Origin: Salinicoccus halitifaciens
GTDB taxonomy: Bacteria > Bacillota > Bacilli > Staphylococcales > Salinicoccaceae
Length of the DNA stretch: 64,000 nucleotides
Direction: 5' to 3'
Assembly: GCF_021026095.1 (NCBI RefSeq)
Contig: NZ_JAJNCU010000002.1
Coordinates: 248,001 to 312,000, forward strand
Part shown: piece after piece, positions 10,708 to 62,305 of the stretch
Layout: each line of letters opens with the position of its first letter
Position numbering within the stretch: the stretch's first letter is position 1
The notes under the pieces: generated by a model
Told to the model about the DNA's origin: nothing
What the model saw: only the letters and a program-made list of their open reading frames with translations
The model's database searches: none
Position numbers and translations under genes: made by a program

Positions 10708-10723
10708 AAGGGGATGAACCACT

Positions 10724-11206: not shown

Positions 11207-11239
11207 AAGTATTCCAATCCATCAAAAGGGAGGGATAGT

Positions 11240-12067: not shown

Positions 12068-12078
12068 GAGACGATGAA

Positions 12079-14303: not shown

Positions 14304-14305
14304 CA

Positions 14306-16765
14306 GTGGAAAAAAATATAAACAATGAAATTAGGAAGTTAATTAATAATAAAATGTTCTTTCAATCTATAAAAAAATTAGAATTAAATAAAAAGTTAAC
14401 TGAAAAAGAAAGCTCATTCATATTAACTTGTGCTTTATTATTTACAAAAATTTATGAGCAGGATCAACGAAAAAAAATAATTGTAGAATTTGCCTACTAT
14501 ATATTTCTAAAATACTCTCTGATTTCAAAAGATTACAGACCACTAAATGATTTTTCTTTAAATTTTGGCTTCTACCCTATATCTAAGCTAATAAGGGAAA
14601 AAGAATTAATAGAAAACGTGTCTTTAAACGATATAATTTTAAATTACAGAATAGAGAAAGATTTCACATCAAATGGTTTTATTAATACAAGAGAACAAAA
14701 AGTAATTAGTGAGAACTTAATGAATGATACATCAAAGTATACAAGTTATGTTGCACCAACTTCCTATGGTAAAAGTGAGTTAATAGTAAATTATTTAAAA
14801 AAAGAATCGTCTAATTATGAAAAAATGGCAATCATTGTACCGACGAAATCTTTATTGGCCCAAACATTTAGAAATGTTAAAAAATCAAATCTCAAAAGAA
14901 AAATAATTACTCATGATGAGATGTATAATAATGATGAATCTTTTATAGCTATTCTCACGCAAGAAAGAGCGTTAAGGCTGCTTAATAGATATAGAGGTGA
15001 TTTATTTTTTGATATTATCTATATAGATGAAGCGCATAACTTATTTAATAAAGAGGAACGTAGTTTATTAATAGCAAGATTAATAAGATTGAATTACAGG
15101 TATAACCATAAACAAAAATTAATATATTTATCTCCCCTCATTAACAATAGTGATCATCTTCAATTAGATTTTCAAGAAGATATTAATGAACAAAAAATTC
15201 ACTTTAATATGAAGGAACCTGAGATATTTGAATTAAGAAGAGATAAAAAACTTTATAAATATAATCGTTTTCTAAATAAGTTTTTTTTCCAAAAAAAATT
15301 AGAATATGAAAAGTCCGATTATATAAACTATATCTTTGAAAATATGTCAGAAAAAAATATGATATATCATCGGAGTCCAAAAAAGATTGAACAAATTGCC
15401 AACACATTATTTACCCAATCAGATGAAAATCTAGAAGAAGAAAGAATTAATGAGGTAATTGAGGTGCTTCGTGAATATGTCCACCATGATTTCAATATGA
15501 TTGATTATTTAAAAAAGGGAATTATATACTTACATGGAAAATTACCTACTTTAATTAAAGAATTTTTAGAGTATGAGTTTTCTAGAAACAAAAAAATTCA
15601 GTTTGTAGTAGCAAATAATGTAATATTAGAGGGGGTTAATTTGCCTATTTCTACATTATTTATACTCAATACTTTTCAATTATCTAAAAATCAATTAATG
15701 AACTTGATAGGTAGGGTAAACAGATTAGATAATATTTTCATTCATTCAAAGGATTTGCATAAATTGACTCCCCCTATACATTTTATAAATAGTGATTTAA
15801 ATGCTAAGCGAATGAAAATGGAGAATCAAATAAAAAAATTAGGCGATAATACTCCTATTGATAAGCTTCTTAACCCTTTCTTGAAGAATTTTGATATAGA
15901 AAGTTTAAGTGGAAAAAATTTAGAGAAAATAAAAACTATTCTAAAAAATGAAGAGTACTTACTTAGTGATTCAGCTACGAAAAGTGACCAATTTTACTTA
16001 AAATTATTAGAAGAAGGACTAGAAAAAATATTAGATTTATCAAATGTGAAATTAGTTAATGGACTAAAAAGAAGAGTTGAGATTTATAAAGATGACAAAG
16101 AATTTTTTAGAAAAGATTTAATTGAAAAAGTATATTTAGTCTTTATTAGTGGAATTAAAGATGAGTATTTTATTGATTTTGAATTTAGAAGATTAAAAAA
16201 CGAAGCTGCAAGAAATTATTATAAAATGTTTATTGTTGATCAGAAATTATCATTAAAAGAAAGGATTAATAAACAATTTAGATATTTCTACAGGATAAAA
16301 TATGATAGCGATTCATCCGGGTTAATGTATATAGGACATGGATATGGAGAAGTTGAAAGACCCAACAATAATTATGAAGGTCAAAGTTACAAGGTTTATG
16401 TGAACCTAAAAGAAAAAACTGAAAAAGAAATCATTAATTTAGTAATAATAAAATTGAAAATGGAAGAGGACTTTATTAACTACAAAGTATTTAAGTTTAT
16501 TAGATTTCTGTATGAATATAACTTAATAAATGATAATGATTATAATACTTTTGTTTACGGCACAAATGAAAAAAAGAAGATAGACTTGTTGAAAATGGGA
16601 CTATCTTTAAATTTGGTTGACAAATTTGGAAAGGACGAGCAACTCAAGAATTTAAGTATCGACAGCTTTGGAAACTTAGTAACAAATGAGGAATTTGTAG
16701 CTTATAAAGAAAAATTAAGAGGTTTATATAAGTTTGAGACCAACAAATACTTCTTTGATAAATAG
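14306..16765 (+). CDS. hamB: Hachiman defence protein HamB (DEAH-box helicase)
   Basis: Superfamily 2 helicase partner of HamA. The protein has 819 residues. It shows a Walker A-like APTSYGKSE at 150-158, motif Ia IVPTKSLLAQ, and DEAH at 241-244. A GRVNRLDN segment in the second RecA domain fits helicase motif VI. A long family-specific C-terminal region follows. The GTG start at 14306 follows AAGGAGGGG inside the end of hamA, so the two genes are translationally coupled. The length and order hamA-hamB match described Hachiman loci. It is AT-rich like hamA. Confidence 0.87.
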   Translation: MEKNINNEIRKLINNKMFFQSIKKLELNKKLTEKESSFILTCALLFTKIYEQDQRKKIIVEFAYYIFLKYSLISKDYRPLNDFSLNFGFYPISKLIREKELIENVSLNDIILNYRIEKDFTSNGFINTREQKVISENLMNDTSKYTSYVAPTSYGKSELIVNYLKKESSNYEKMAIIVPTKSLLAQTFRNVKKSNLKRKIITHDEMYNNDESFIAILTQERALRLLNRYRGDLFFDIIYIDEAHNLFNKEERSLLIARLIRLNYRYNHKQKLIYLSPLINNSDHLQLDFQEDINEQKIHFNMKEPEIFELRRDKKLYKYNRFLNKFFFQKKLEYEKSDYINYIFENMSEKNMIYHRSPKKIEQIANTLFTQSDENLEEERINEVIEVLREYVHHDFNMIDYLKKGIIYLHGKLPTLIKEFLEYEFSRNKKIQFVVANNVILEGVNLPISTLFILNTFQLSKNQLMNLIGRVNRLDNIFIHSKDLHKLTPPIHFINSDLNAKRMKMENQIKKLGDNTPIDKLLNPFLKNFDIESLSGKNLEKIKTILKNEEYLLSDSATKSDQFYLKLLEEGLEKILDLSNVKLVNGLKRRVEIYKDDKEFFRKDLIEKVYLVFISGIKDEYFIDFEFRRLKNEAARNYYKMFIVDQKLSLKERINKQFRYFYRIKYDSDSSGLMYIGHGYGEVERPNNNYEGQSYKVYVNLKEKTEKEIINLVIIKLKMEEDFINYKVFKFIRFLYEYNLINDNDYNTFVYGTNEKKKIDLLKMGLSLNLVDKFGKDEQLKNLSIDSFGNLVTNEEFVAYKEKLRGLYKFETNKYFFDK

Positions 16766-17793
16766 TAGAACAAGCGTCTTTGTAGTTATTTTAATGTCAA
16801 TATAGACATAACTCATTCTAATAAATTCATGATTTCAAAAAGGATTTTAAATTTTTATTAGCATTCCATGTTTCTAAGGAAATTTCTGCTAAGAGGCTCC
16901 TTTTTTGCTATAAAATTAGGGAGTTTACTATATATTATACAAGTTATGCCTTAAAAAAATTAACAATACTAACTTAAAAAGTGTGATAACCTCTACGGAT
17001 GTATTTAATAATCTTTTTAAATCGACTGATGGTAGAGAGCTAAAGAAAGATTGATTTTAAGAAATTATACTCACAATTGCTAAGCATCTTGTTTAGGATA
17101 GAACATGACAATTCTTGATAGTGATTTAGAAAAATATTCATTTTTGAGAAGCCTCTCTACCTCGCTTAACTATTACTTATCTTACTATCCAACTTAAACT
17201 GTTGCATTCTATTTTTACATTATTATACTTCTATGGATTTTAATCGTGGTCTTTCTTCATAATTAATTATAGGTTCATATTGAGGCGCATAGGTACTTAC
17301 TTTACTTTCTATTCTTCACTGAAAATCTCTGAATGTCTTGAGGATATTTCAATCTTATATCAATTAAGATATCTTAATGATTTCAATCTTTTCAAGATTA
17401 ACAAGATAATATTGAAAATTATATTTAATATTTATATGTGAAATAAGAGAGAAATTACAGGATGGCGTGATTGCTTCTAGCATTCGGGATTAAAAGAGTT
17501 ATTGAATTACTGTAAGAGTCATTTAAATCAAAGGATTTAAGGATGTCTGTGCCATAGCTAGCAGACGAGTTAAATAATAAAGAAACCTTTTACGTATTGA
17601 TTATAGATTGATTCTGAGGTCGAAGAAAATCTTGTAGTAGCTGAATTATTATATATATTTATATAAATGAAATCTGTTATTACAAATCACGCTCCAAGTA
17701 ATATGAAGACTTCTCATTTGATCCAATAGATTTTTATACATTAGCATAATAAGTAAGTTTTAATTTTAAAATTATATAAAGGATTAGATAGAA
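16766..17793. other. gene-free AT-rich spacer, probably decayed sequence
   Basis: This is about 1 kb between hamB and hsdM with no convincing coding frame on either strand. Every frame is broken at short intervals. One 30-codon frame begins ATGACAATTCTTGATAGT (about 17105) behind a weak AGGA; I do not call it. No clear inverted repeat pair, tRNA or transposase remnant was found. It looks like eroded genes within the island. Confidence 0.6.
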
Positions 17794-19806
17794 ATGATGA
17801 ATTTCCAAGATAAAGTAAACTTTTTATGGACTATAGCTGAAATACTAAGAGGTCCATATAAACCAGAAGACTACGGTAAGGTGATTCTGCCAATGGCAGT
17901 ATTGCGTCGGTTTGACAATGTTCTAGAAGATACAAAAGAGGAAGTTCTGGAAAGCTATCAGAAATTCAAGAACTTGCCTGAAGAAGCTCGAGACGAAATA
18001 CTAAATAGAACATCAAAGCAACGTTTCAATAATACGAGCAACTATGACTTTCAGAAACTCTTGAATGATTCTGATAATATTGCAGAAAACTTCCGAGATT
18101 ATATCAATGGCTTTTCAAAAACAGCAAGAGAGATCATCGAGTACTTTGATTTTGATAAGCATATTGAAAAGATGGATCGTAATGGCCTTTTGTATTTGAC
18201 CGTAAAACGATTTGCAGAGGTTGATTTACATCCTGATAAAGTTACCAATCTTGAAATGGGTTATATTTTTGAAGAATTGATTCGTCGATATTCTGAACAC
18301 GCTGAAGCCGGGGACCACTATACACCAAGGGAAGTCGTTAGATTGATGGTGGGTCTTATGTTCAATGAGGATGATGAGATTTTGACGAGGCCTGGTATTA
18401 CCCAGACTCTTTATGATGGATGTGCGGGCACAGGGGGCATGGGTTCTATTGCACAGGAATATATGCAGGAAATGAATCCATCAGCAGAGTTGGAATTTTT
18501 TGCTCAAGAGTTTAATGAAGAGTCATTTGCGATGTGTAAGGCAGATATATTAATCAAAGGACAAAATGCACAGAACATTCGTTTTGGTAATACGTTAACA
18601 AGAGATGCTTTTCCGACGCAAAAATTTGATTATCTGATTTCAAATCCACCATATGGAGTCGAGTGGAAGCCTGCTGAGAAAGTTGTGAGGGAAGAACATG
18701 AGGATTTAGGAATGAATGGACGTTTCGGTGCTGGGTTGCCGCGGATTGGTGACGGCCAACTTCTATTCTTGCAGCATCTCGTATCGAAAATGAAGCCTGT
18801 AAGCGAGGATAATCCCCAAGGATCTCGTATGGCAATTATCATGAATGGCTCGCCACTATTCACAGGAGATGCTGGCAGTGGAGAAAGTGAGATACGCCGC
18901 TATGTAATTGAAAATGACCTGGTAGAAGGTATTATTGCAATGCCTAAAGACCTTTTCTACAACACTGGCATATCTACATATGTTTGGATTCTCACCAATA
19001 ATAAAACCAAATGGCGCAAAGGAAAAATTCAGCTTGTTAATGCGGTTGAATACTACGAGAAGATGCGCAAAAGCTTAGGAGAAAAGCGTAACCAGATTTC
19101 TCAGTATCAAATCGATGAAATCATCCGTATATATGGAGAGTTTAAAGAGCAGGATAATGTGAAGATTTTTGATAACGAAGATTTTGGCTATCAAAAGATT
19201 GTTGTAGAGCGACCGCTGAAGCTTAACTTTATAGTAAACGATGAACGCATCGAGCGTCTCTACGAACAGAAGGCATTCCAGAACCTGGCAAAATCAAAGA
19301 AAAAAGGTGAAGTGGGTATTAAAGAACAAGAAGCCGGGGAAGAAATACAAAATACTATCATTAAAGTATTACAGCAGTTGAAAGAAGATAGGCTATATAA
19401 GAACCGAGAAATATTCACCGAAAAATTGAAAACTGCATTTGTAGAGGCTGGCATTGATATGAAAGCTTCATTATTAAAGGCGCTTCTCGCAGCACTTTCT
19501 GAGAAAGACGAGACGGCTGATGTCTGTGTGAAAAATAAAAAAGGGGATGTGGAAGCAGATCTTGATTTGCGTGACACAGAGAATGTCCCCCTCAAAGAGG
19601 ACATTCGTGCTTATTTTGAACGTGAAGTGTTGCCACATGTACCAGATGCATGGATAGATGAAGAGAAAACAAAAATCGGCTATGAAATACCATTTACTAG
19701 ACACTTCTATCAGTACCAGGAACTTCGTTCTTCCAGTGAAATCAAAGAGGAAATACAGGAGCTAGAAATGAGTATTTTAGATAAGTTGAAGAAGGTGATG
19801 ATGTGA
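17794..19806 (+). CDS. hsdM: type I restriction-modification methyltransferase subunit HsdM
   Basis: N6-adenine methyltransferase subunit of a type I restriction complex (2 HsdM:1 HsdS:2 HsdR). The protein has 670 residues. An N-terminal helical HsdM_N domain is followed by motif I DGCAGTGGM (208-216) and motif IV NPPY (284-287, in LISNPPYGVEW). A charged C-terminal extension lies beyond about 500. ATG at 17794 follows AAAGGA, with a second ATG directly after. Its end overlaps hsdS by 4 bp (GTGA), so the two are coupled. Confidence 0.95.
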   Translation: MMNFQDKVNFLWTIAEILRGPYKPEDYGKVILPMAVLRRFDNVLEDTKEEVLESYQKFKNLPEEARDEILNRTSKQRFNNTSNYDFQKLLNDSDNIAENFRDYINGFSKTAREIIEYFDFDKHIEKMDRNGLLYLTVKRFAEVDLHPDKVTNLEMGYIFEELIRRYSEHAEAGDHYTPREVVRLMVGLMFNEDDEILTRPGITQTLYDGCAGTGGMGSIAQEYMQEMNPSAELEFFAQEFNEESFAMCKADILIKGQNAQNIRFGNTLTRDAFPTQKFDYLISNPPYGVEWKPAEKVVREEHEDLGMNGRFGAGLPRIGDGQLLFLQHLVSKMKPVSEDNPQGSRMAIIMNGSPLFTGDAGSGESEIRRYVIENDLVEGIIAMPKDLFYNTGISTYVWILTNNKTKWRKGKIQLVNAVEYYEKMRKSLGEKRNQISQYQIDEIIRIYGEFKEQDNVKIFDNEDFGYQKIVVERPLKLNFIVNDERIERLYEQKAFQNLAKSKKKGEVGIKEQEAGEEIQNTIIKVLQQLKEDRLYKNREIFTEKLKTAFVEAGIDMKASLLKALLAALSEKDETADVCVKNKKGDVEADLDLRDTENVPLKEDIRAYFEREVLPHVPDAWIDEEKTKIGYEIPFTRHFYQYQELRSSSEIKEEIQELEMSILDKLKKVMM

Positions 19807-29968: not shown

Positions 29969-32107
29969 ATGTCAAAAATAAAAGAATTACTGAATAAACG
30001 TTATGGATACTTCATCTTATTTCTTTTTTTATTCTGGTTGAAAACGTACATAGCCTACTGGGTTGAATTCAGCCTGGGCGTATCAGGTGTAATGGAAAAC
30101 ATTATATTGTTCATCAACCCGATTGCCACCGGTGTTATAGTTTTATCCATTGCGCTGTTTTTTAAAAATCCCGGTTTAAGAAAATGGGTAATGTTTACAT
30201 TGCTGCTGTTAATGACACTGTTATTATATGTGAACATTCTATATTACAGGGAGTTCGCTGATTTCCTAACGTTTAATATAGTATCCAGTACCAATAACGT
30301 GACGACTGCCTTATTTACTTCCACGTTTGAAATGATGAGGATCTGGGACTTGTTATACTGGGTCGATATCATGTTGTTTGGCTACTTGTTCTTCTATAAA
30401 AAGAAGGCGCTGCTCACTGAAGATCAGAAAACATATAAGAGGCGCACCAAGACTTTGGTCACATCACTCGGTGTCCTGCTTTTGGCAGGAAACCTGATAC
30501 TGGCGGAAATTGACCGTCCTGAACTATTGACCCGGACTTTTGACCGGAATTACATTGTTAAATATTTAGGGCTGAATTTCTTTACCGGTTATGATGCTTT
30601 CCAGGCCTCGCAGAACAGTCAAATGCGCGTAAGCGCCGACGAGTCGGATTTAGCGAAGGTGTTCAACTTTGCATCGGAAAACCATGCAGCGCCGAACCCT
30701 GAATACTTCGGGGTGGCGGAAGACCGCAACGTCATCGTGATCGCATTGGAAAGTGTGCAGCAGTTTTTGATCGATTATGAATTGGAAGATGAATATGGGG
30801 AGAGGCATGAAGTCATGCCGTTTCTTTCGAGTATATATAACAATGAAGACTCATACAGCTTTGAGAACTTTTTCCACCAGACCGGTCAGGGCAAGTCATC
30901 AGACGCTGAAGTTTTAGGTGAGTTGTCATTATACGGCCTCCCGCAGGGCAGTGTGTTCCAGACACTGGGATCCACGAATACATTCCATTCAGCGCCGAAT
31001 ATTCTGGCACAGCAGGGGGATTACACCTCAGCTGCTTTCCACGGCAATGTCGGCTCCTTTTGGAACAGGACGGATACTTACCGGAGTTTCGGTTATGATT
31101 ACTTCTTTGATGCCGAGTTTTATGACGTATCCGGAAACAGATCAATGGAATACGGCTTGAAAGATAAATTGTTTTTCCATGATTCAGTGGAGTATCTTGA
31201 ACAGCTGCCGCAGCCGTTCTACTCGAAGTTCATCACTGTTTCCCATCACTTCCCTTATCCTTTGGATGAGGAAAATTCGGAATTTCCGGCTGCCCGGACA
31301 GACGATGACACAATCAATAATTATTTCGTTACAGCCCATTATGCCGACCAGGCGTTGGAAGAGTTTTTCAATTACTTGAAATCAAGCGGCCTATATGAGG
31401 ACTCAATCATAGTCATGTATGGTGACCATTATGGCATTTCCGACATGAGAAACCCGACATTAGCGCCTTTGGTGGGTGAAGATTCGGATGAGTGGAATGA
31501 TTACCATAATACTCAAATACAAAGAGTGCCGTTCATCATGCATGTTCCCGGCATTGGAAACGGTGAAGTGTTTGACACCTACAGCGGTCAGGTGGACATG
31601 CTTCCAACCTTGATGCATTTATTAGGCATAGAAACAGACGGCTACTTGTTTATGGGGCAGGATATTTTATCAGAAGAACATGATAATACCGTACCCTTGA
31701 GAAATGGACGTGTAATCACCCCGGAATATACTTTCCTTGAACAGGAAATCTATGATACAGAGACAGGGGAGCCGCTGCTGGACCAATTTACCGAAGAAGA
31801 GTTGGAAGAACTTTATCTCTTTAGAAACGAAGCGAGAGAAGAGTTAAATCATTCCAATGAAATTCTGATGAAAGATCTACTGCGTTTCTATAACCCTGAA
31901 CCTCTGGATGAATTGAAAGAAATCGATTATTTATATCGTGATCAGTTGGATGTCCTCGAAGATCATCCAGGAAAAGAAACGAGCCTGATCGAACAACGTG
32001 ATGGCGAATCAAGCAGGGATTTATATGAAACAGATGCCCCGGAGATGGAAGGGTTAGAAAGTAATACATCAGAAGAAGAGTCGAATTCAACTGACCAGCC
32101 GGAATGA
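29969..32107 (+). CDS. LtaS-like membrane sulfatase / phosphoglycerol transferase
   Basis: Polyglycerolphosphate lipoteichoic acid synthase family enzyme, moving glycerol phosphate from phosphatidylglycerol outside the cell. The protein has 712 residues: five N-terminal membrane helices (to about 180), then an extracellular sulfatase domain. Catalytic landmarks are E261 (IALESVQ), HQTGQGKSSD (304-312), FWNR (364-367), SHHFPYP (425-431) and YGDHYG (484-489; D486, H487). The nucleophile position, Thr in Staphylococcus aureus LtaS (GKTSD), is Ser310 here. The last 70 residues are a highly acidic tail missing from the 646-residue S. aureus enzyme. Whether it is the main synthase or a paralogue is unknown. 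Confidence 0.88.
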   Translation: MSKIKELLNKRYGYFILFLFLFWLKTYIAYWVEFSLGVSGVMENIILFINPIATGVIVLSIALFFKNPGLRKWVMFTLLLLMTLLLYVNILYYREFADFLTFNIVSSTNNVTTALFTSTFEMMRIWDLLYWVDIMLFGYLFFYKKKALLTEDQKTYKRRTKTLVTSLGVLLLAGNLILAEIDRPELLTRTFDRNYIVKYLGLNFFTGYDAFQASQNSQMRVSADESDLAKVFNFASENHAAPNPEYFGVAEDRNVIVIALESVQQFLIDYELEDEYGERHEVMPFLSSIYNNEDSYSFENFFHQTGQGKSSDAEVLGELSLYGLPQGSVFQTLGSTNTFHSAPNILAQQGDYTSAAFHGNVGSFWNRTDTYRSFGYDYFFDAEFYDVSGNRSMEYGLKDKLFFHDSVEYLEQLPQPFYSKFITVSHHFPYPLDEENSEFPAARTDDDTINNYFVTAHYADQALEEFFNYLKSSGLYEDSIIVMYGDHYGISDMRNPTLAPLVGEDSDEWNDYHNTQIQRVPFIMHVPGIGNGEVFDTYSGQVDMLPTLMHLLGIETDGYLFMGQDILSEEHDNTVPLRNGRVITPEYTFLEQEIYDTETGEPLLDQFTEEELEELYLFRNEAREELNHSNEILMKDLLRFYNPEPLDELKEIDYLYRDQLDVLEDHPGKETSLIEQRDGESSRDLYETDAPEMEGLESNTSEEESNSTDQPE

Positions 32108-52747: not shown

Positions 52748-52772
52748 AATTTCAATTAAAATATTTATATTG

Positions 52773-52803
52773 AACTGTGCTTTTCCAGGCACAGTTTTTT
52801 TAT
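52773..52803 (+). terminator. terminator of the three-gene module
   Basis: Stem ACTGTGC/GCACAGT with a nine-base loop, followed by seven T. Confidence 0.85.
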
Positions 52804-52827: not shown

Positions 52828-52856
52828 TTGACAAATATGAATTACTGAATTATATT
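52828..52856 (+). promoter_or_regulatory. sigma-A promoter of aromatic cluster 2
   Basis: TTGACA (52828-52833), exactly 17 bp, TATATT (52851-52856). The start would be near 52863, giving a leader of about 235 nt before the first gene. Confidence 0.75.
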
Positions 52857-52960: not shown

Positions 52961-53099
52961 GACAGTGTTTGTAATTAGAGGAGGATGGCAGACTAAGGGG
53001 AATTAGATGTTTTTGAGGAATCGTTAAGGGGTTACTGTTGTTGATCAAACTGGGATATAACGATAAAAAAATTAATTAAATTATATGGGGGATTTTAAA

Positions 53100-54506
53100 A
53101 TGACAGTTAAAACAACGAAAAGCAATTCTTTACAAAGTCTGATTGAAAGCAAGCCGAACCTGGTGGATCATTTTTATAACGACGCGCCGTCGTTGCATTT
53201 CGCTAAATCTGCAACAGGTGCTTATATACCGCCTGCATTTACAAACTGGCGTGAGGAACAGCAATCCTGGAGTAAAGCTGTGGCGCTGCTCCATCAGTCT
53301 CATCATATGCCTGAGCTTTTCGTGGAAGGGCCTGACGCTGAAAAATTCCTGATGAAATATACGGTAAATAAATTTAATAATTTTACGGAAGGTCGTGCTA
53401 AACAACTCGTCGCAGTGACGCCAAGCGGTTATTTAATCGGCGACTGCATAGCCCATAACCTTGATGATGATAAATATGAATTGATCAGTGGAATGCCTCT
53501 TCAAAACTGGCTGCTGTATAATGCCGAAAAGGGCGAGTTCGATGTGAAATTGACTCAGGACATGCCGTCACATTTAAGGAAAAGCGGTGAAAGAACATTT
53601 TGGAGATTCCAATTGGTCGGGCCTAATGCAGGACCATTATTCGAAGCTCTGATTGATGAGCCGTTAGAGGAAAAAATTAAGTTTTTCCGGACTAAAAGAG
53701 TCAAAATCAGAGGCTGCGATGTTCTGGTCCATAGACATGATATGACCGGTCATGAAGGTGTAGAGATCTCAGGGCCGTTCGAGGATGAAAAGACAGTCAG
53801 AGATGCAATCCTTGAAGTGGGTAAAGATTTCGGCCTGAAGCCGGTAGGCACCCAGGCTTACTTCACCACATCTTTTGCAAGCGGCTTCATGGCGCATCCA
53901 ATGCCTGGCATCTATACTGATCCGGCCCTTGAAGACTACCGCAATTGGTTGAAAGAAGACGGCTGGGAAGCCCATAGCGAAATCGGAGGCAGTTATGTCA
54001 CGGATAATATAGAAGATTATTATGTGACGCCTTTTGATCTGGGTTACGGTCATGTCATTGATTTTGAACGTGATTTCGTCGGGAAAGAAGCATTGCAAAA
54101 TTTCCCTGAAGATAAGAAGCGTAAAAAAGTGTGTCTTGTCTGGAGCCGTGAAGATGTCAAAAAGATCTACGACTCACAACTGGGAACAGGAAAGCGCTAT
54201 AAGGCACTGGAGCTGCCGGTGACGAATTTCGCATGGAACCAATATGATGAAGTCAAAAGTGAAGATGGGGCGTTTGCCGGGGTATCCTGCCACGCCGGAT
54301 ATGTAGATCCTGTAGGAGATTTCCAATCCATTGCAATGGTGAAGCCTGAGTTCAGTGAGCCCGGTACAGAACTTGTACTTACATGGGGAGAGATTAATGG
54401 CGGGTCCAGGAAACCTCAAGTTGAAAGTCACGAGCAGACTACAATCAAAGTGACTGTTGCACCGGAGTTTTACAGCACTAAAAGTCCTGGTATCAATAAT
54501 GATTAA
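53100..54506 (+). CDS. GcvT-family O-demethylase, LigM/DesA-like
   Basis: Tetrahydrofolate-dependent aminomethyltransferase-fold protein of 468 residues, the length of the Sphingobium vanillate O-demethylase LigM (about 471). It probably removes the methyl group of a methoxylated aromatic and passes it to tetrahydrofolate. The N-terminal folate-binding domain includes LVAVTPSGYLIGDCI and GHEGVEISGP; a C-terminal beta domain follows (about 350-460). ATG at 53100 follows GGGGGAT. The next gene encodes an MTHFR-like reductase, as with ligM-metF. Substrate not known; other GcvT-like demethylases are possible. Confidence 0.8.
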   Translation: MTVKTTKSNSLQSLIESKPNLVDHFYNDAPSLHFAKSATGAYIPPAFTNWREEQQSWSKAVALLHQSHHMPELFVEGPDAEKFLMKYTVNKFNNFTEGRAKQLVAVTPSGYLIGDCIAHNLDDDKYELISGMPLQNWLLYNAEKGEFDVKLTQDMPSHLRKSGERTFWRFQLVGPNAGPLFEALIDEPLEEKIKFFRTKRVKIRGCDVLVHRHDMTGHEGVEISGPFEDEKTVRDAILEVGKDFGLKPVGTQAYFTTSFASGFMAHPMPGIYTDPALEDYRNWLKEDGWEAHSEIGGSYVTDNIEDYYVTPFDLGYGHVIDFERDFVGKEALQNFPEDKKRKKVCLVWSREDVKKIYDSQLGTGKRYKALELPVTNFAWNQYDEVKSEDGAFAGVSCHAGYVDPVGDFQSIAMVKPEFSEPGTELVLTWGEINGGSRKPQVESHEQTTIKVTVAPEFYSTKSPGINND

Positions 54507-54551: not shown

Positions 54552-55439
54552 ATGAAGAAAGTCGCTTCAAATGATCAGGAGAGAAGAATTTTAGCCGACT
54601 TACTGGATAATATCGGATATGAAGTCATGCCTTTCAAAAATGCTGTAGAAAAAGTGACTGCCGATGTACCGACAAGCATACCTTTGACTGTCACAGCAAC
54701 CGGTGATAAGGGGCTTGAATCGACACTTGAAGTATCCATTTCCCTGCGTGAAAAAGGCTATAAAGTTGCACCGCATATACCTGCACGTCTCGTTACCGGT
54801 CCGGATGAGCTGGATCAGATCATCGAAAGACTGAGGGTTGCAGATATTGATCAGATATTCATCATTGCAGGAGATGCCAAAGAGCCTGCCGGGAAATTCA
54901 AAGATTCATTGGATATGCTGAAAGTGCTGAACGCAAAAAATCATCATTTCAAGAATATAGGGATAGGCGGATATCCGGAAGGACATGCACTTTTTGAGGA
55001 TACTCAGATAGAAGATGCATTGAAGGCAAAGTCGCCCTATGCAGACAGGATTTTAACACAAATTTGTTTTTCGGCCGACACCTTCATTAAATGGAATAAA
55101 AATATTCAAAGTGATGGAGTAGAGCTGCCCGTCTACGCAGGAATGCCTGGTCCAATCAGCCGCCAAAAGCTGATTCGGATTTCGGCGGGCCTCGGTCTCG
55201 GCCAGTCAGCGAACTTTCTGAAGAAGCAGCAGAACATGTTTTGGAAATTCTTCACGCCCTCGGGATATAATGCCACGAATATCGTGAGAGGGCTGGTCAG
55301 GCAAATGACAAATACAACGACCACTTTTAAAGGATTCCATATTTTCACATTCAATGATTTCGAAAGCACTGAAAAATGGCGTAAGGAACTCTTGAAGCAA
55401 ACTGGTCAACAGAGTTGGCGTTTACAGGAAAATTCCTAA
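54552..55439 (+). CDS. methylenetetrahydrofolate reductase-like protein
   Basis: Flavoprotein of the MTHFR family with 295 residues, forming a single TIM barrel. IPLTVTATGDKGLE, IIAGDAKEPAGKF, IGIGGYPEGHALFED and FSADTFIKW are in the usual order. Beside an O-demethylase it would run in the oxidative direction, turning 5-methyl-THF back to methylene-THF. The protein is divergent from housekeeping MetF, which fits a dedicated catabolic copy. It lies 45 bp after the demethylase gene, in the same operon. Confidence 0.83.
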   Translation: MKKVASNDQERRILADLLDNIGYEVMPFKNAVEKVTADVPTSIPLTVTATGDKGLESTLEVSISLREKGYKVAPHIPARLVTGPDELDQIIERLRVADIDQIFIIAGDAKEPAGKFKDSLDMLKVLNAKNHHFKNIGIGGYPEGHALFEDTQIEDALKAKSPYADRILTQICFSADTFIKWNKNIQSDGVELPVYAGMPGPISRQKLIRISAGLGLGQSANFLKKQQNMFWKFFTPSGYNATNIVRGLVRQMTNTTTTFKGFHIFTFNDFESTEKWRKELLKQTGQQSWRLQENS

Positions 55440-55460
55440 AAGATGATTATGGGGGAAGAT

Positions 55461-56942
55461 ATGATGGCTGTTAATAATGAAGTGCATACTCTGGAAAAGA
55501 TATGGAATTTGAGGACCAATCCTCATTTGAAACCGATGAAAGTAGATGTGAATATCAACGAAGAAGGGAAGTCTCCCGGTTATTATTTCCTGGGACCCCA
55601 TGCATTGACGAAAGATGATTTAATCGGTCAAACTTCCGTGATGATCATGGATGATGAAGGGAATCCAGTCTGGTTTCACCCGGCCGATGAGTTCACACAG
55701 ATCATGAATTTCAGAACCCAGACATATAAAGGGGAGCCGGTCCTCACCTTGTGGCAAGGGACCCTGGCCGAATCGGAAATCAGGCCGAAGCCTTTGCCTT
55801 ATGGCGATCCCTTGCCTGGTGCAGTCTTTCAAATTTATAACCAGAACTATCAACTGATTAAAAATGTGAATGCCCAGAAAGGTTATGTGTCGGATTTCCA
55901 TGAATTTCTGATCACTGAGAGAGGTACTGCAATCATTCTCGGATTAAAACAAATCCCGGCTGATCTCTCAAAATACGGTGGGCCGGAAAATGGTTATATT
56001 GATGACTATTCAGTACAGGAAATTGATATCGAAACGGGAGAATTGCTGTTCTTCTGGGACGCGCTGTCCCATATCAATCCGGCTGATTCTGTCGAGCCGG
56101 TTCCTGATAAAGATGATTATCTTCCAATTTGGGACCCATATCATTTGAATTCAATCGAAGAAGGACCGGATGGGACATTGCTGCTCAGCATGAAAACCAT
56201 GAATGCGCTTTATAAAATCGACAAGGAGACGGGGCAAGTGATTTGGCAGATTGGTGGAAAAAACAGTGATTTCGAAGTGAGTTCCGACGCCGTTTTCTCC
56301 AATCAGCATGATGCACGTTTCATCTCTTCCGATACCATCAGTTTATTTGATAACAACAAAGGAGATCCTGAAAATGACCCGGATGGTATATCACGCGGCT
56401 TGATAATAAAGGTGGACGAAAAGAATAAGAAAGTGGAGGTCGACAGGACTTTTTACCACGATTCCCCTTTATATGTCGGACCGGAAGGCGGAATGAGCCA
56501 TCAAAGTGACGGCAACTTCACGGTAGGATGGGGTTCCGGATTCCATATTTCAGAATTCGGCGGTCAGGGCAACAGCGTTTCGGACACAGATTCGAATATA
56601 CTATTTGATGCAACGTTCCCCGGAGGTAACTTAACTTATAGAGCGTATAAGGATGAGTGGACCGGACTTCCGCTTGAATCGCCGAAAATCGCTGTGGAAT
56701 TGGATGAGGAGAACGGCGCAGCCGTATATGTCTCCTGGAATGGCACCACTGAAACAGCCAAATGGCAGGTGGTTGGAGGAAAAGAGGCGTATTTGATGGA
56801 GGAAATCATCACTGTTGAAAAAGAAGGCTTCGAAACAGTGATCAATGTCCAAGATTCAGGACCGTATTTTCTTGTTAATGCTTTGGATGAGAATGGCAAT
56901 ATTTTAGGAAGCTCCTTAACCAAGCATGCTGAGTTCTTTTAA
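55461..56942 (+). CDS. arylsulfotransferase-family beta-propeller protein
   Basis: Member of the PAPS-independent aryl sulfotransferase (ASST, Arylsulfotran_2) family, which moves sulfate between phenolic compounds. The protein has 493 residues. Propeller blades show SDFHEFLITERGTAIIL, then YHLNSIEEGPDGTLLLSMKT with IDKETGQVIWQIGG, then FSNQHDARFI and GGMSHQSDGNFTVGWG. A C-terminal domain resembles a fibronectin type III module. No signal peptide is seen, whereas the E. coli enzyme is periplasmic. Start 55461 is chosen for the GGGGGAAG site. Its role in an aromatic operon is unknown. Confidence 0.78.
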   Translation: MMAVNNEVHTLEKIWNLRTNPHLKPMKVDVNINEEGKSPGYYFLGPHALTKDDLIGQTSVMIMDDEGNPVWFHPADEFTQIMNFRTQTYKGEPVLTLWQGTLAESEIRPKPLPYGDPLPGAVFQIYNQNYQLIKNVNAQKGYVSDFHEFLITERGTAIILGLKQIPADLSKYGGPENGYIDDYSVQEIDIETGELLFFWDALSHINPADSVEPVPDKDDYLPIWDPYHLNSIEEGPDGTLLLSMKTMNALYKIDKETGQVIWQIGGKNSDFEVSSDAVFSNQHDARFISSDTISLFDNNKGDPENDPDGISRGLIIKVDEKNKKVEVDRTFYHDSPLYVGPEGGMSHQSDGNFTVGWGSGFHISEFGGQGNSVSDTDSNILFDATFPGGNLTYRAYKDEWTGLPLESPKIAVELDEENGAAVYVSWNGTTETAKWQVVGGKEAYLMEEIITVEKEGFETVINVQDSGPYFLVNALDENGNILGSSLTKHAEFF

Positions 56943-56979
56943 GTCACAATTCTTTTTTTAAATAACTAGGGGGATGGCA

Positions 56980-57945
56980 ATGGAAAATGAACTGAAAAAA
57001 TTTGATATTGCAGAACTGACACACATGGAACTTTATACACCTGATCTGGAGGGGACGGTCTGGTTTTTTAAAGACCTCCTCGGCTTGATCGAAACTTCCC
57101 GCGAAGGCAAGTCTGTTTATTTAAGGGGATATGAGGACACATATACATGTTCCCTCAAAGTAACGGAGAGAGACAAGCCGGGACTCGGACATTTAAGCTT
57201 CAGGGCAAGTTCCCCGGAAGCGTTGGAGCGGAGAGTCAAGGCACTGGAAAACTCAGATTATGGCAAAGGCTGGATTGATGGAGACGCAGGACATGGACCT
57301 GCGTATCAGTTTGTGACACCTGATAATCACTTGATGGAGATTTTGTGGGAAATAGATGAATTTGAAGCACCGGATAAAAATAAGACCATACTGAAAAACA
57401 GACCGCAGAAAAGACCTTTGCATGGTTATCCGGTAAAGAGGCTGGATCATGCGATGCTGATGTCTCATGATGTGGCCGGCAATAAAGAATTATTTATGGA
57501 TCTGCTCGGATTTAAATTGAGTGAGCATATTGTGAAGGATGACGGTTCTGATCTGGGAATCTGGCTGAGGGTCACGAATACGGTCAATGAGCTTGTGTTC
57601 ACTGAAGATGAAGCACCCAATTCAGAAGGGCTGGGGAGACTCAATCATTTTGCTTTCCTCTACGGCAGCACTCAAAACTTGTTTGAAGTTGCAGAAGTGC
57701 TGAAAGAACACGATCTTGAAATCGAAGCGGGACCATTTAAACACGGCATCAGCCAGACGACCAGTTTATATGTCTATGAGCCTGGAGGCAACAGAGTGGA
57801 ACTGTACGGGGATCCGGGGTACCTGATCTTTAATCCTGACTGGAAGCCTGTGAAATGGACTCAAGAGGAAGTTCAGGATGCCATCATGTTTTACGGATCA
57901 CCTTTACCTGAGTCGTTCTTCATTAACGGTACCCCTAATGTGTAA
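56980..57945 (+). CDS. extradiol ring-cleavage dioxygenase (catechol 2,3-dioxygenase type)
   Basis: Fe(II) extradiol dioxygenase with 321 residues in two VOC domains. Iron ligands are H157 (KRLDHAML), H223 (GRLNHFAF) and E274 (NRVELY). H255 (FKHGISQ) and Y264 (SLYVYEPGG) complete the family signature. ATG at 56980 is preferred over 56974, because AGGGGG abuts the earlier ATG. It is a paralogue of the enzyme at 9703. In this cluster the downstream enzymes belong to the 4-oxalocrotonate branch, which bears on its substrate. Confidence 0.92.
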   Translation: MENELKKFDIAELTHMELYTPDLEGTVWFFKDLLGLIETSREGKSVYLRGYEDTYTCSLKVTERDKPGLGHLSFRASSPEALERRVKALENSDYGKGWIDGDAGHGPAYQFVTPDNHLMEILWEIDEFEAPDKNKTILKNRPQKRPLHGYPVKRLDHAMLMSHDVAGNKELFMDLLGFKLSEHIVKDDGSDLGIWLRVTNTVNELVFTEDEAPNSEGLGRLNHFAFLYGSTQNLFEVAEVLKEHDLEIEAGPFKHGISQTTSLYVYEPGGNRVELYGDPGYLIFNPDWKPVKWTQEEVQDAIMFYGSPLPESFFINGTPNV

Positions 57946-58115: not shown

Positions 58116-58871
58116 ATGTCTATCAAATCAGTACAAAGAGCGATGAACATTCTGGAATTGATTCAGAAGGAAGGGCCGGGCTTAAGTCTAGGGGAAATCA
58201 GCAAATCTCTTGATTTACCGAAAAGCACAGCTCATGGAATCATTAAGACGCTGCAAAGTCAGGATTTCATAAAACAGCATGCCAGAACTTCAGAGTATCA
58301 CCTTGGAATTAAACTTTTTGAACTGGGCAATACACTGGCGGACTCGATGGATATCGTAAATCTTGGTCATCAGTATCTGGAGTATTTGGTTGAAGAGTAT
58401 AATGAAACAGCCCATCTGGCCATCCTGAGCGATAAAGAAGTGGTATACGTGGATAAAAAAGAAGGGGAAGGTGCTCTTAGAATGTATTCGCAGCTTGGTA
58501 AAAGGGCACCTCTTTACTGCACGGGGGTTGGAAAAGCGATGCTTGCCCATCTTCCCGAAAAAGATATTGATAAAATTCTCTCAGAAATGGAAATGACTGC
58601 ATTTACTCCCAATACCATAACTGATTCCGAGCAGCTGAAAGAACATCTTGAAGAAACCAAAACCCAGGGTTACTTATATGATGATGAAGAAATTGAAATT
58701 GGATTGAAAAGTGTGGCGGCACCGGTTTTCAACCATAAGAGCGAAGTCTTTGCCGCCATCAGTTGTGCGGGGCCTTCAAGCAGGTTTGGAGATGAACGCA
58801 TCAAAGAAATAGGACTGACTTTGAAATCTTACGCTGAACAAATTTCCAAAAGTTTTGGGTACACCAAATAA
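58116..58871 (+). CDS. IclR-family transcription regulator
   Basis: Regulator of 251 residues. The N-terminal winged helix (SVQRAMNILELIQ, LGEISKSLDLPKSTAHGIIKTL) is followed by an IclR effector domain (YCTGVGKAMLAHL, VAAPVFNHKSEVFAAIS). It splits the upper genes (53100-57945) from the lower genes (58893 onward) on the same strand, with a 170-bp gap before it. It is the obvious candidate to bind the GTTCGA palindrome near 52886. Repressor or activator role cannot be decided from sequence. Confidence 0.92.
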   Translation: MSIKSVQRAMNILELIQKEGPGLSLGEISKSLDLPKSTAHGIIKTLQSQDFIKQHARTSEYHLGIKLFELGNTLADSMDIVNLGHQYLEYLVEEYNETAHLAILSDKEVVYVDKKEGEGALRMYSQLGKRAPLYCTGVGKAMLAHLPEKDIDKILSEMEMTAFTPNTITDSEQLKEHLEETKTQGYLYDDEEIEIGLKSVAAPVFNHKSEVFAAISCAGPSSRFGDERIKEIGLTLKSYAEQISKSFGYTK

Positions 58872-58892: not shown

Positions 58893-59078
58893 ATGCCGAT
58901 TATTCATATGAATTTAGTGGAAGGCAGGGACGATGAGACTATAAGAAATTGTGTGCAAGAGGTCTCAAAAACAGTCTCTGAAACTCTTGATGCGCCACTG
59001 GAAAGTGTCAGGGTGATTGTAAATGAAGTGCCTAAAAATCGTTTTTCAGTCGGAGGAAAAATGAAGGATGAGAAATAA
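58893..59078 (+). CDS. 4-oxalocrotonate tautomerase
   Basis: Isomerises 2-hydroxymuconate to 2-oxo-3-hexenedioate (4-oxalocrotonate). The protein has 61 residues and begins MPIIHMNLVEGR, so the mature N-terminal proline is the catalytic base and R11 (mature numbering) is conserved. SVRVIVNEV follows as usual. AGGAAGTGA precedes the ATG. Its presence shows that this cluster handles a dicarboxylate ring-fission product. Confidence 0.92.
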   Translation: MPIIHMNLVEGRDDETIRNCVQEVSKTVSETLDAPLESVRVIVNEVPKNRFSVGGKMKDEK

Positions 59079-59090
59079 GGGGTTGGCATT

Positions 59091-59876
59091 ATGCTGGACG
59101 AACGGCAAAAACATTTAGCTGCTCTTTTAAGGCAGTCAAAATATGACCGGAAAAGTATTTCTTCTTTAACTGCTGGCAGTATCGATTTGAGTATCGATTC
59201 AGCGTATCATATACAATTGGAAAATATAAAATATGAGATGAAGCAGGGCCGGGAGATCACTGGGAAGAAAATCGGATTGACTTCAAAAAAAGTGCAGGAG
59301 ATGCTCGGGGTTGATGAACCTGACTATGGCCATCTTTTAGATGATATGGAGATTGATGATGGTGGGAGTATCTCATTCCGGCAGTTGCTGCAACCAAAAG
59401 TGGAGGGTGAATTGGCTTTCCGTTTAAAAGAAGATTTAAAGGGTCCGGGTGTTACCAGTATGGATGTTTTAAAAGCTACAGATCGCATTTTTCCATCCAT
59501 TGAAGTTGTGGACAGCCGTATAAAGGACTGGAAAATCAGCTTGATTGATACAGTTGCCGATAATGCATCAGCAGGATATTTTGTGCTGGGGAAAACAGGC
59601 AGAAAGGTTACCGATGTGGATGTGAAAAAAGTGGAAATGGCACTTTATCGTAATGGGCAATTGCTCAATACGGGAGTGGGGACAGCCGCTCTTGGGAATC
59701 CTGCATATTGCGTGGCCTGGCTCGCCAATAAATTATCCAATTATAATATTCCGCTTAAAGCGGGAGAAGTCATCTTATCCGGCGCATTATCAGGCATGGT
59801 TGAAGTGAAGCCGGGAGACAAAGTAAGGGCTGAATTTTCTGAGCTTGGCGAAGTGGAAGTCAGTTTTACATATTAA
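59091..59876 (+). CDS. 2-hydroxypenta-2,4-dienoate hydratase
   Basis: Hydratase of 261 residues, XylJ/DmpE type, which forms a complex with the decarboxylase encoded next in other bacteria. Landmarks are GKKIGLTSKKVQEMLGVDEP, VEGELAF and DSRIKDWKISLIDTVADN. It is a paralogue of the hydratase at 12079. Lies 12 bp after the tautomerase gene and 65 bp before the decarboxylase start. Confidence 0.87.
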   Translation: MLDERQKHLAALLRQSKYDRKSISSLTAGSIDLSIDSAYHIQLENIKYEMKQGREITGKKIGLTSKKVQEMLGVDEPDYGHLLDDMEIDDGGSISFRQLLQPKVEGELAFRLKEDLKGPGVTSMDVLKATDRIFPSIEVVDSRIKDWKISLIDTVADNASAGYFVLGKTGRKVTDVDVKKVEMALYRNGQLLNTGVGTAALGNPAYCVAWLANKLSNYNIPLKAGEVILSGALSGMVEVKPGDKVRAEFSELGEVEVSFTY

Positions 59877-59941
59877 TTTTTATGGGAAAAACACTTTCTG
59901 AACCAGGCTGTGAAACATACTATCGAAAGGACGTCAGTGAA

Positions 59942-60733
59942 ATGGATGAATCTATAATCAAAGAGCTTTCCCAGTATGTATTGACTGCAGAGGAAGAAAA
60001 AGAAGAGATTATAAAAATAACTGAAGCATTGCGGCCGGAACTTAATATTGACGAGGCATATATGGTTCAAGAGGAACTAATACGAAAAAAAATGGAAAAA
60101 GGACAGAAAGTCATTGGACCAAAGATGGGAATTACAAGCGAAGCAAAGATGAAACAAATGAATGTGGACAATCCGATATATGGATATGTATTTGATTACA
60201 TGGTGACGGAAGATGGGGGAGCAGTTTCAGCTGGGAATTTTATTCATCCCAAAGTCGAACCGGAAATTGCCTTTATCCTGTCGGAAGACTTGCAGGGACC
60301 CGGAATCACGGTCGATGATGTCTTGGAGGCTACTGAATTCATACTGCCTGCTTTGGAAATTATAGACAGCCGTTATGAAAACTTCAATTTTACGTTGCCG
60401 GATGTCATTGCCGACAATACTTCAGCAGCGGGCGCAGTTTACGGTACCGATTTAACAAAGCCCGAAGATGTAGATCTGGACACAGTTGAGGTCACTTTAG
60501 TCATCAACGGGGAAGTTCAGGATGCGGGGACAGGAGCAGCAATACTCGGACATCCTGCAAATTCTATAGCAAGGCTTGCGAATATGCTGGGCGAGAAGGG
60601 GAGGAAAGTATCCGCGGGAGAACGAATTCTTGCAGGAGCTGTAACCCAGGCAATCCCAATTAAGCCCGGGGACCACGTCGTTGCAAAATATGGAGGCGAG
60701 ATGGGCGAAGTCTCTTTTAAGGTCACGGACTGA
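59942..60733 (+). CDS. 2-oxo-3-hexenedioate (4-oxalocrotonate) decarboxylase
   Basis: Metal-dependent decarboxylase of the XylI/DmpH type, making 2-hydroxypenta-2,4-dienoate for the hydratase. The protein has 263 residues. GPKMGITSEAKMKQMNVD, EPEIAFIL and DSRYENFNFTLPDVIADN separate it from the hydratases (which have KIGLTSK and DWKI). ATG at 59942 follows AAAGGACG; an in-frame extension to 59882 lacks a site. Confidence 0.88.
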   Translation: MDESIIKELSQYVLTAEEEKEEIIKITEALRPELNIDEAYMVQEELIRKKMEKGQKVIGPKMGITSEAKMKQMNVDNPIYGYVFDYMVTEDGGAVSAGNFIHPKVEPEIAFILSEDLQGPGITVDDVLEATEFILPALEIIDSRYENFNFTLPDVIADNTSAAGAVYGTDLTKPEDVDLDTVEVTLVINGEVQDAGTGAAILGHPANSIARLANMLGEKGRKVSAGERILAGAVTQAIPIKPGDHVVAKYGGEMGEVSFKVTD

Positions 60734-60889: not shown

Positions 60890-62305
60890 ATGGGGAAAAA
60901 TTCAAAAGAGAGTCCAAGAAAGAATTCATCACTGGCCGGGAATCAAATATGGAAGTGGGCAATCACGCTCCTGCTTCCGATGATTATTGCCTTGATACCA
61001 GTCACCGACATATTCACTTCCGATATAAAATGGTTTTTAGTGATCACTGTGATGGCAGTCGCCATTATGGCTACAGGGGTTATACCGTTGATTGCCATTT
61101 CTCTTGCTTTACCGATACTATATTTCATTTTGCTCGATATACCCACCTCACTTGCTTTATCACCTTGGACTGGACAGATACCGTGGCTTGTATTGGGGGG
61201 CTTTATCGTTACGATTGCAAGCCAAAAAACCGGTTTATTGAACCGTTTGGCCTACCACTCGATCTTATTATTTGGTGGTAATTTTAAAGGTATCATTTTT
61301 GGCTTACTTATAGTGGGGATTCTTCTCGCTGCAGTTATTGCCGACCCGAGTGCAAAGGCAATTTTACTAGGCACTTTGACCCTGGGTATTTGTACGGCGC
61401 TTAATTTGGAGTTGGGAAGTAAATCAGCTGCGGCACTGGGGGCCACTGTCATCGCCGTTACTTTGGGACCATCATTCTTATTTTCCCATGCTATAGGTAA
61501 TATGGTGGTATTTGAAGTAGCTTCCGATGTAGGAGTGTCCCTCCCGCCGGCACCTGAGTATTTCACTCATATGTTGATACCTCAACTAATCTATATATTA
61601 TTGACCGTTTTAGTGATTTTTATAGTGTTCAAGCCAGACGAAAAGATTGAATCTAAACAGTACTTTAAAGAACAATTAAAACAGTTGGGTCCAATGAGAA
61701 TTAACGAAAAGAAATTGGTGGCAATAACTATTTTACTCATCTTCGCCATTCTAACCTCGGGGATTCATGGTATTGATGTGGGATGGCTTTTTGCCATTGC
61801 AGCAATCCTAATGTTCCTGCCGGGAATTGCTCTGGTGAAGGAAGAGGATTTGAGTAAGGTGAACTTTACGATTATATTTTTTGCAGTTGCATGCTTAAGC
61901 ATAGGATTGGTATCCGTGGAGCTTGGGGTCGCGGGGCTCGCTCAATCACTCGCAAGTCCTTGGTTGAGAGGAGGGGGCCTAGAGGTCATTCCTGGTATAT
62001 GGATGTTCGGTTTTCTGATAAACTTCCTTTTAACGCCTTTAGCAGGATGGACAGCATTCACAGCCCCTTTGGTTGAACTTGCTAGGGATCTTAACATTAA
62101 TCCTTTGCCGGTACTATATTCGTATATTCAAGGATTGGAGCAGGTCCTGTTTCCATATGAATATGCAACTTTATTGATAATATTTGGCTTTGGTATGATG
62201 AGCATGGGTCAATTTATAAAATATAATCTTGTCCGGGCAGTGATCAGTGGTGTTGCGATTGCTGTTCTATTTATACCTTACTGGTATTTGATCGGTCTCC
62301 TGTAA
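60890..62305 (+). CDS. SLC13/DASS-family anion transporter
   Basis: Membrane carrier of 471 residues with about 12 hydrophobic segments. It belongs to the divalent anion:Na+ symporter group (SLC13, CitT/SdcS-like). The first half contains ATGVIPLIAISLALPILYF and PWLVLGGFIVTIASQKTG; the second repeat contains NFLLTPLAGWTAFTAPLVELA. Located at the end of aromatic cluster 2, 156 bp after the decarboxylase, it may import an aromatic acid or another carboxylate for this pathway. Direct evidence for the substrate is absent. Confidence 0.82.
   Translation: MGKNSKESPRKNSSLAGNQIWKWAITLLLPMIIALIPVTDIFTSDIKWFLVITVMAVAIMATGVIPLIAISLALPILYFILLDIPTSLALSPWTGQIPWLVLGGFIVTIASQKTGLLNRLAYHSILLFGGNFKGIIFGLLIVGILLAAVIADPSAKAILLGTLTLGICTALNLELGSKSAAALGATVIAVTLGPSFLFSHAIGNMVVFEVASDVGVSLPPAPEYFTHMLIPQLIYILLTVLVIFIVFKPDEKIESKQYFKEQLKQLGPMRINEKKLVAITILLIFAILTSGIHGIDVGWLFAIAAILMFLPGIALVKEEDLSKVNFTIIFFAVACLSIGLVSVELGVAGLAQSLASPWLRGGGLEVIPGIWMFGFLINFLLTPLAGWTAFTAPLVELARDLNINPLPVLYSYIQGLEQVLFPYEYATLLIIFGFGMMSMGQFIKYNLVRAVISGVAIAVLFIPYWYLIGLL

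Follow-up and report, generated by a model that had tools for sequence, protein, structure and literature searches.

Described PAPS-independent sulfotransferases and the Salinicoccus locus

According to a 2026 review (PMC13426309), the natural substrates and physiological roles of most PAPS-independent sulfotransferases are unknown. The enzyme EcAST (AssT) of Escherichia coli CFT073 is described there as periplasmic, with an essential disulfide and an operon shared with DsbL/DsbI; it carries out a ping-pong transfer through a sulfo-histidine, and its active site includes His252, His356, Asn358 and His436 (PMC13426309). For another AST a tyrosine intermediate has been proposed, and the enzymes of Cluster I are reported to be more efficient with catechol as acceptor (PMC13426309). 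Cpz4 of Streptomyces acts in the biosynthesis of the antibiotic caprazamycin and, in the account of the same review, prefers sugar hydroxyls as acceptor (PMC13426309). The enzyme treated in PMC12135136 is presented there as PAPS-dependent.

Here we describe a member of this family, ASST, from Salinicoccus halitifaciens, which is encoded among aromatic catabolic genes, whereas Cpz4 belongs to caprazamycin biosynthesis. The window, by which we mean the whole stretch of DNA analysed, comprises 64,000 nt (assembly GCF_021026095.1, contig NZ_JAJNCU010000002.1, positions 248,001-312,000). The presence of a non-exported Cpz4-like protein among O-demethylation and meta-cleavage genes is genuine, unusual and known from a single instance; a limited literature search (titles and abstract openings among the matches listed) returned no precedent for an ASST in ring degradation.

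Gene order and catabolic neighbours

The features of the operon are as follows.

52772-52797, plus strand: terminator-like hairpin before the operon (consensus scan)
52828-52856, plus strand: TTGACA-17-TATATT, a promoter-like site ahead of the operon (matches the consensus at 11 of 12 positions in the scan)
53085-54506, plus strand: LigM/DesA-like aminomethyltransferase-family protein, likely a tetrahydrofolate-dependent aryl O-demethylase (GCV_T domain, PF01571, 129.3 bits)
54552-55439, plus strand: MetF/MTHFR-like protein, presumably handling methyl-tetrahydrofolate (PF02219, 58.6 bits)
55443-56942, plus strand: Arylsulfotran_2-family protein without signal peptide, ASST (PF14269, 162.3 bits)
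56974-57945, plus strand: catechol 2,3-dioxygenase-like (C23O-like) extradiol dioxygenase (TIGR03211, 311.3 bits)
58116-58871, plus strand: IclR-family regulator (PF01614, 178.3 bits)
58893-59078, plus strand: 2-hydroxymuconate (4-oxalocrotonate) tautomerase (NF002571, 66.7 bits, cut-off 55)
59091-59876, plus strand: 2-oxopent-4-enoate hydratase-like protein (TIGR03220, 309.8 bits, cut-off 408.8)
59882-60733, plus strand: 2-oxo-3-hexenedioate (4-oxalocrotonate) decarboxylase-like protein (TIGR03218, 303.7 bits, cut-off 350.55)
60890-62305, plus strand: DASS-type Na+/anion symporter (PF00939, 91.4 bits, cut-off 27)

ASST is the third gene of a run that begins with the LigM/DesA-like gene (likelier start 53100) and the MetF/MTHFR-like gene and continues with the C23O-like gene, the successive gaps being 45, 3 and 31 bases; the regulator, tautomerase, hydratase-like, decarboxylase-like and transporter genes follow on the same strand. 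An earlier note on this DNA had placed the arylsulfotransferase gene between O-demethylation genes and a dioxygenase, and this placement holds, with the LigM/DesA-like and MTHFR-like genes upstream and the C23O-like gene downstream. The first four genes probably form one transcription unit. The consensus scan found no terminator-like site on the plus strand from the promoter-like site to 62500; its totals, set against shuffles (31 promoter-like sites versus 22.5 +/- 4.9, 5 terminator-like sites versus 8.0), make such sites weak evidence, and a promoter-like consensus match alone is no proof of function.

Judged by their family matches, the genes around ASST are a catechol meta-cleavage set, and the DASS-type symporter is a possible importer of an anionic aromatic; among the operon frames there is no 2-hydroxymuconic semialdehyde dehydrogenase-like gene. 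Against NCBIfam models the O-demethylase-like protein scores 445.2 bits for DesA (cut-off 800) and 417.5 for LigM (cut-off 580), and since it thus misses the cut-offs for both LigM (vanillate/3-O-methylgallate) and DesA (syringate), we name it LigM/DesA-like only. It matches a Mesorhizobium protein at 52.9%; of 398 genomes of the class, only its own has the gene at E 1e-40, and a genome of the same family holds a 28% relative. The dioxygenase falls narrowly below the cut-off of TIGR03211 (311.3 versus 320.2 bits) and is therefore called C23O-like; its matches at 58.0% are Thermus proteins with a catechol 2,3-dioxygenase annotation. Taken together, the O-demethylase-like, MTHFR-like and C23O-like genes suggest that the operon acts on a guaiacol-type substrate.

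The genome holds five extradiol dioxygenase genes at E 1e-20, the operon's included. At three of the four others (L116, L129 and positions 1-52700 of the window) no match to the O-demethylase-like, MetF-like or ASST protein was found, which indicates that ASST goes with the demethylation module and not with ring cleavage generally. One of these stretches, L116 (C4:14000-33900, on the same contig), is a second meta-cleavage/aromatic cluster with semialdehyde dehydrogenase-like, hydratase-/decarboxylase-like, extradiol dioxygenase and ferredoxin-like genes, together with Rieske oxygenase subunits whose nearest models are benzoate and phenylpropionate dioxygenase; its 2-hydroxymuconic semialdehyde dehydrogenase-like gene scores 638.8 bits (cut-off 693.25). 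Within the window, the stretch 9703-12855 comprises a further C23O-like gene and, downstream of it, one of the hydratase/decarboxylase family.

The rhizobial loci L045 and L047 share with the ASST operon the succession of an O-demethylase-like gene and an MTHFR gene. The ASST operon differs from the four neighbourhoods L044-L047 in that these carry genes annotated as FAD oxidoreductases, maleylacetate reductase or ABC transporters, and none of the four contains a match to ASST or to the C23O-like protein. On the rhizobial plasmids L044, L045 and L047 the O-demethylase-like relatives (50-53%) lie beside MarR and FAD oxidoreductase genes, in L044 also with a dioxygenase and a maleylacetate reductase; these genes perhaps encode O-demethylases of another methoxy-aromatic.

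The GC content of the eight longer operon genes is 0.417-0.453 and that of four flanking genes 0.519-0.561, against a window mean of 0.447 and a range of 0.253 to 0.550 in 2-kb steps. Because the operon equals the window mean and the window itself varies so widely, composition says little on a common origin, and operon GC as a sign of acquisition was dropped for the same agreement with the mean. Elsewhere in the window, 14001-18000 has 25-27% GC against an average of 45%, with long frames at 14306-16765 and 17794-19806 in or adjoining it, and is possibly mobile or defence DNA.

Family, fold and conserved active site

The ASST frame is intact, with 499 codons from 55443 and 493 from 55461; the latter start is likelier, as GGGGGAAG, a ribosome-binding-like stretch read by eye, precedes it. 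Both Pfam arylsulfotransferase models match above their cut-offs, PF14269 (Arylsulfotran_2) with E 2.3e-47 and 162.3 bits against 27, and PF05935 (Arylsulfotrans) with E 7.1e-20 and 71.8 bits against 24.2, which bears out the earlier family assignment; no NCBIfam model matched at E 0.01.

An AlphaFold2 model, built from an alignment of 31 sequences taken from the window and the fetched loci (A3), reached a mean pLDDT of 88.7 and a pTM of 0.89. The predicted fold is a beta-propeller like that of Cpz4 and EcAST. The best solved-structure matches were the Cpz4 entries 9kf6 (Z 48.0; rmsd 1.6 over 448 residues) and 9kf4 (Z 47.7; rmsd 1.8 over 451 residues), which cover the full length at 34% identity; the EcAST entries came next with Z about 30 (30.3 to 4p05), and the remaining rows reached at most 20.6. 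ASST and Cpz4 thus have in common the full-length fold and the positions of His, His, Asn and His, and differ in that Cpz4 has Arg where ASST has K251 and the loop QGSMQ where ASST has EGGMS. With EcAST (3elq, 3ets, 3ett) the propeller is common at 20% identity, His252, His356, Asn358 and His436 are matched, and Arg374 is replaced by Lys. The corresponding codons are listed below.

55899-55901, plus strand: codon of H153, equivalent to EcAST H252 (profile alignment; His in 32 of 32 relatives)
56142-56150, plus strand: codons of H234 and N236, equivalent to EcAST H356 and N358, with the intervening codon
56193-56195, plus strand: codon of K251, aligned with the sulfate-binding Arg374 (all 32 A2 relatives have Arg here)
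56307-56309, plus strand: codon of H289, equivalent to EcAST H436, the sulfated nucleophilic histidine (profile alignment, A2)
56484-56498, plus strand: loop E348-S352, in the region of EcAST T501 (EGGMS; most relatives QGNxQ)

H153, H234, N236 and H289 align with EcAST residues 252, 356, 358 and 436 in the A1 profile (counted by hand), and all four are identical in 32 of 32 relatives in alignment A2, which has 33 rows and excludes L030 (stop codon), L004, L014, L017, L020, L026, L029, L031 and further matches. The earlier note had regarded loss of the catalytic histidines, together with a lack of activity on aryl sulfates, as telling against its reading and had expected an arginine along with them; H153, H234 and H289 are kept, as is N236, and the arginine is a lysine.

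Absence of an export signal

Unlike EcAST, ASST has neither a signal peptide nor a cysteine. The TAA of the MTHFR-like gene (55437-55439) stands in frame with the first ASST ATG (55443), 3 bases before it, so that an N-terminal extension is absent and a signal peptide impossible; no 15-residue stretch that begins within the first 60 residues has a mean hydropathy above 0.51, which leaves no hydrophobic segment. Several relatives, some of them exported, also lack cysteine.

Among the relatives an upstream in-frame hydrophobic segment of at least 1.4 is present in 40 of 46 rows, duplicates included, by a crude measure, namely plain hydropathy on upstream-extended frames with no signal-peptide predictor. 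The set behind this count has 47 rows with 40 distinct sequences and excludes 19 minus-strand matches and the short L029 match; the rows below 1.4 are L019 and L053 (0.71), L069 and L082 (1.19), L057 (1.27, a partial match) and L026 (cut off). Both statements of the earlier note on this point, that ASST lacks a signal peptide and that its relatives are normally exported, therefore agree with the data, the second for most rows. An export signal is usual in EcAST-type enzymes, if not necessarily a defining trait.

A possible role in the turnover of aromatic sulfate esters

The reading that we favour, with a probability somewhat short of even, is that ASST is a sulfuryl transferase with the structural type of Cpz4, independent of PAPS and located in the cytoplasm, which removes sulfate from, or parks it on, the methoxyphenol or catechol substrates of a demethylation/meta-cleavage operon. 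By analogy with EcAST, the likeliest chemistry would be a ping-pong transfer through sulfo-H289; given the operon, the likeliest substrates would be the sulfate esters of methoxyphenols or catechols, or these phenols as acceptors. An aryl sulfate, such as a sulfated phenol of the guaiacol or catechol type, would give its sulfuryl group to H289, and the freed phenol would be O-demethylated to a catechol and then undergo meta cleavage. Another hydroxyl compound would take over the sulfuryl group, and sulfate could later be set free from it by a sulfatase whose gene lies outside the operon; since Cpz4 sulfates sugar hydroxyls, a sugar-like acceptor is possible for ASST too. In the reverse direction, the same chemistry would park toxic phenols or catechols as sulfates.

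We find it rather doubtful, though worth stating, that ASST serves catabolism as an intracellular sulfo-histidine relay that desulfates sulfated methoxyphenols by transfer, or that uses sulfate as a removable protecting group. If true, such a catabolic relay would, judging by our limited literature search, be without precedent, and desulfation by transfer would open a further way for sulfated aromatics to enter ring cleavage. Methoxyphenols and catechols are the substrate class that the operon suggests, and the protein needs no export, which makes the substrate question directly testable.

Sulfate-ester metabolism is also represented elsewhere in the genome, which encodes three PF00884 proteins. 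Two of them carry the C-x-P-x-R motif and adjoin a PF03781 (FGE-like) gene; L113 (an ORF in L135) has a hydrophobic N-terminus by eye, and L114 (an ORF in L117) has no export segment by the same inspection. The FGE-like gene in L117 scores 265 bits with Pfam, and the one in L113 has 69% identity to a Pfam-confirmed one in L132. With NCBIfam the L117 sulfatase stays below cut-off (best 107.6 bits versus 481 for arylsulfatase), and its FGE-family neighbour yields sub-cut-off matches only, so that its role as a maturase is putative. The third PF00884 protein (29969-32107 of the window) lacks C-x-P-x-R.

In G022, another genome of the family, the locus L132:6813-14701 has a CxPxR sulfatase (72% to L113) with an FGE-like gene, directly beside and in the same orientation as an operon of C23O-like, acyl-CoA-dehydrogenase-fold and FAA-hydrolase-family genes. 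This locus is consistent with the idea that sulfate esters may feed ring cleavage in the family. Of six C23O loci of the family, this is the one with a sulfatase beside the C23O gene; the same search had no hit at the other five, L129, L130, L131, L133 and L134, of which L130 and L134 are shorter stretches. The earlier note had raised three options, movement of sulfate between phenols, use of aryl sulfates as substrates, and another reaction on the ring; the sulfatase/FGE-family pairs of the genome itself and of the G022 locus slightly favour sulfate esters as substrates.

The same chemistry and the same operon would equally serve a detoxifying shuttle, in which an imported aryl sulfate is used to sulfate catechol or methoxyphenol when ring cleavage is saturated, the reaction being reversed later. 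The efficiency of Cluster I enzymes with catechol as acceptor (PMC13426309) speaks for such a shuttle, as does the finding that no PAPS sulfotransferase of PF00685, the one such family searched, occurs in the genome, which makes an aryl sulfate the probable source of the sulfuryl group; the shuttle would, however, need a supply of donor in the cytoplasm, and the operon encodes none. We consider the shuttle unlikely.

Distribution and genomic context of ASST relatives

ASST was found in its own genome only, both among 157 genomes of the order (1/157 at E 1e-10) and among 398 genomes sampled over the phylum (1/398 at E 1e-20); among 33 genomes of the family, two others have partial matches only (27 and 32% over about 100 residues). 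In a Streptomyces-centred sample (the phylum of G809) matches occurred in 19 of 346 genomes at E 1e-40. The relatives at 34-43% belong to Streptomyces and its kin, Rubrobacter, other genomes of the sample, an Isosphaeraceae MAG and a MAG labelled Parachlamydiales, and more distant ones to a Bacteroidetes MAG and a KSB1 MAG. A single-sequence search of genome contigs with ASST found no relative, while alignment A1 recovered 24 loci; viral contigs held none, and plasmids contributed six records at 27-42% identity. In the tree ASST groups with the Streptomyces, Isosphaeraceae and Parachlamydiales rows (support 100/99), a placement that is unsure because its end branch is long (1.08), long branches meet and its letter composition is unlike that of the alignment.

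When the operon proteins were searched at E 1e-4 around other ASST genes, the same arrangement was found at 0 of 48 loci (L004-L031 and L085-L104; some have short flanks, and L022/L090 and, by coordinates, L021/L089 are the same places), none of which had a comparable match to the MetF-like, C23O-like, tautomerase, decarboxylase-only or DASS proteins. Two loci are partial exceptions: L029 has a 23% aminomethyltransferase-type match to the O-demethylase-like protein, and L009 has an IclR gene and one hydratase-family gene 4-6 kb from its ASST. The survey of homologues proposed in the earlier note thus brought no recurrence of the operon context, and, with ASST confined to its own genome, the association of ASST with the operon rests on one genome.

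Such a single occurrence, with no shared neighbourhood elsewhere, would fit a gene that had landed by chance between the MetF-like and dioxygenase genes and had no part in the pathway. Against a chance landing stand the intact frame with its conserved active-site histidines, the gaps of 3 and 31 bases, the ribosome-binding-like stretch before 55461 and the fact that ASST lacks the export segment seen in most rows of relatives; we regard this explanation as improbable.

Rubrobacter and related genomes have several ASST copies each, at least four in some among the matches listed, and sulfatase genes lie near some of these copies (L005, L087, L092, L095 and L104). A search of 44 ASST loci with the two L005 sulfatases gave matches at L087, L092, L095 and L104, and weakly at L007, besides L005 itself.

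Departures from the family consensus

One departure in the active site is K251, where the arginine is replaced and its charge kept. The active-site residues of EcAST, Arg374 among them, are given as conserved in all published enzymes aligned in the review (PMC13426309), and because of K251 we do not class ASST as a canonical EcAST-type enzyme. Lys at this position was dropped as a unique trait, since one further case, the distant KSB1 relative L031 (24% identity), appeared among the 47 rows (40 distinct sequences). The loop carries the departures N350G, Q352S and L354Q, at positions where the relatives have Asn in 30 of 32, Gln in 31 of 32 and Leu in 32 of 32 cases. K251 and the altered loop suggest a changed substrate; the same Arg374-to-Lys and T501-loop changes could also mean that sulfuryl transfer is altered or lost.

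In total ASST departs from the consensus at 27 of 128 positions, which we considered as a sign of changed function and dropped, because in a leave-one-out control two other lone lineages were nearly as divergent (24/126 and 23/125); divergence alone shows no new function, and only the location of the changes is used here as an argument. That the propeller was recruited to a different reaction on a methoxyphenol or on an intermediate of ring cleavage, be it another group transfer or a hydrolysis, its sulfate pocket no longer used for sulfate, would fit the location of K251, N350G, Q352S and L354Q where relatives agree and the lack of a sulfatase in the operon, but we hold it to be the least probable of the explanations, given that the histidines and Asn of the active site are kept, that the departures are about as numerous as in the control lineages and that a distant relative also has Lys in place of Arg374.

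EcAST Thr501 itself falls on E348 in the profile alignment; the relatives have Gln there in 26 of 32 cases and Thr in 0 of 32, so that this position differs across the whole branch.
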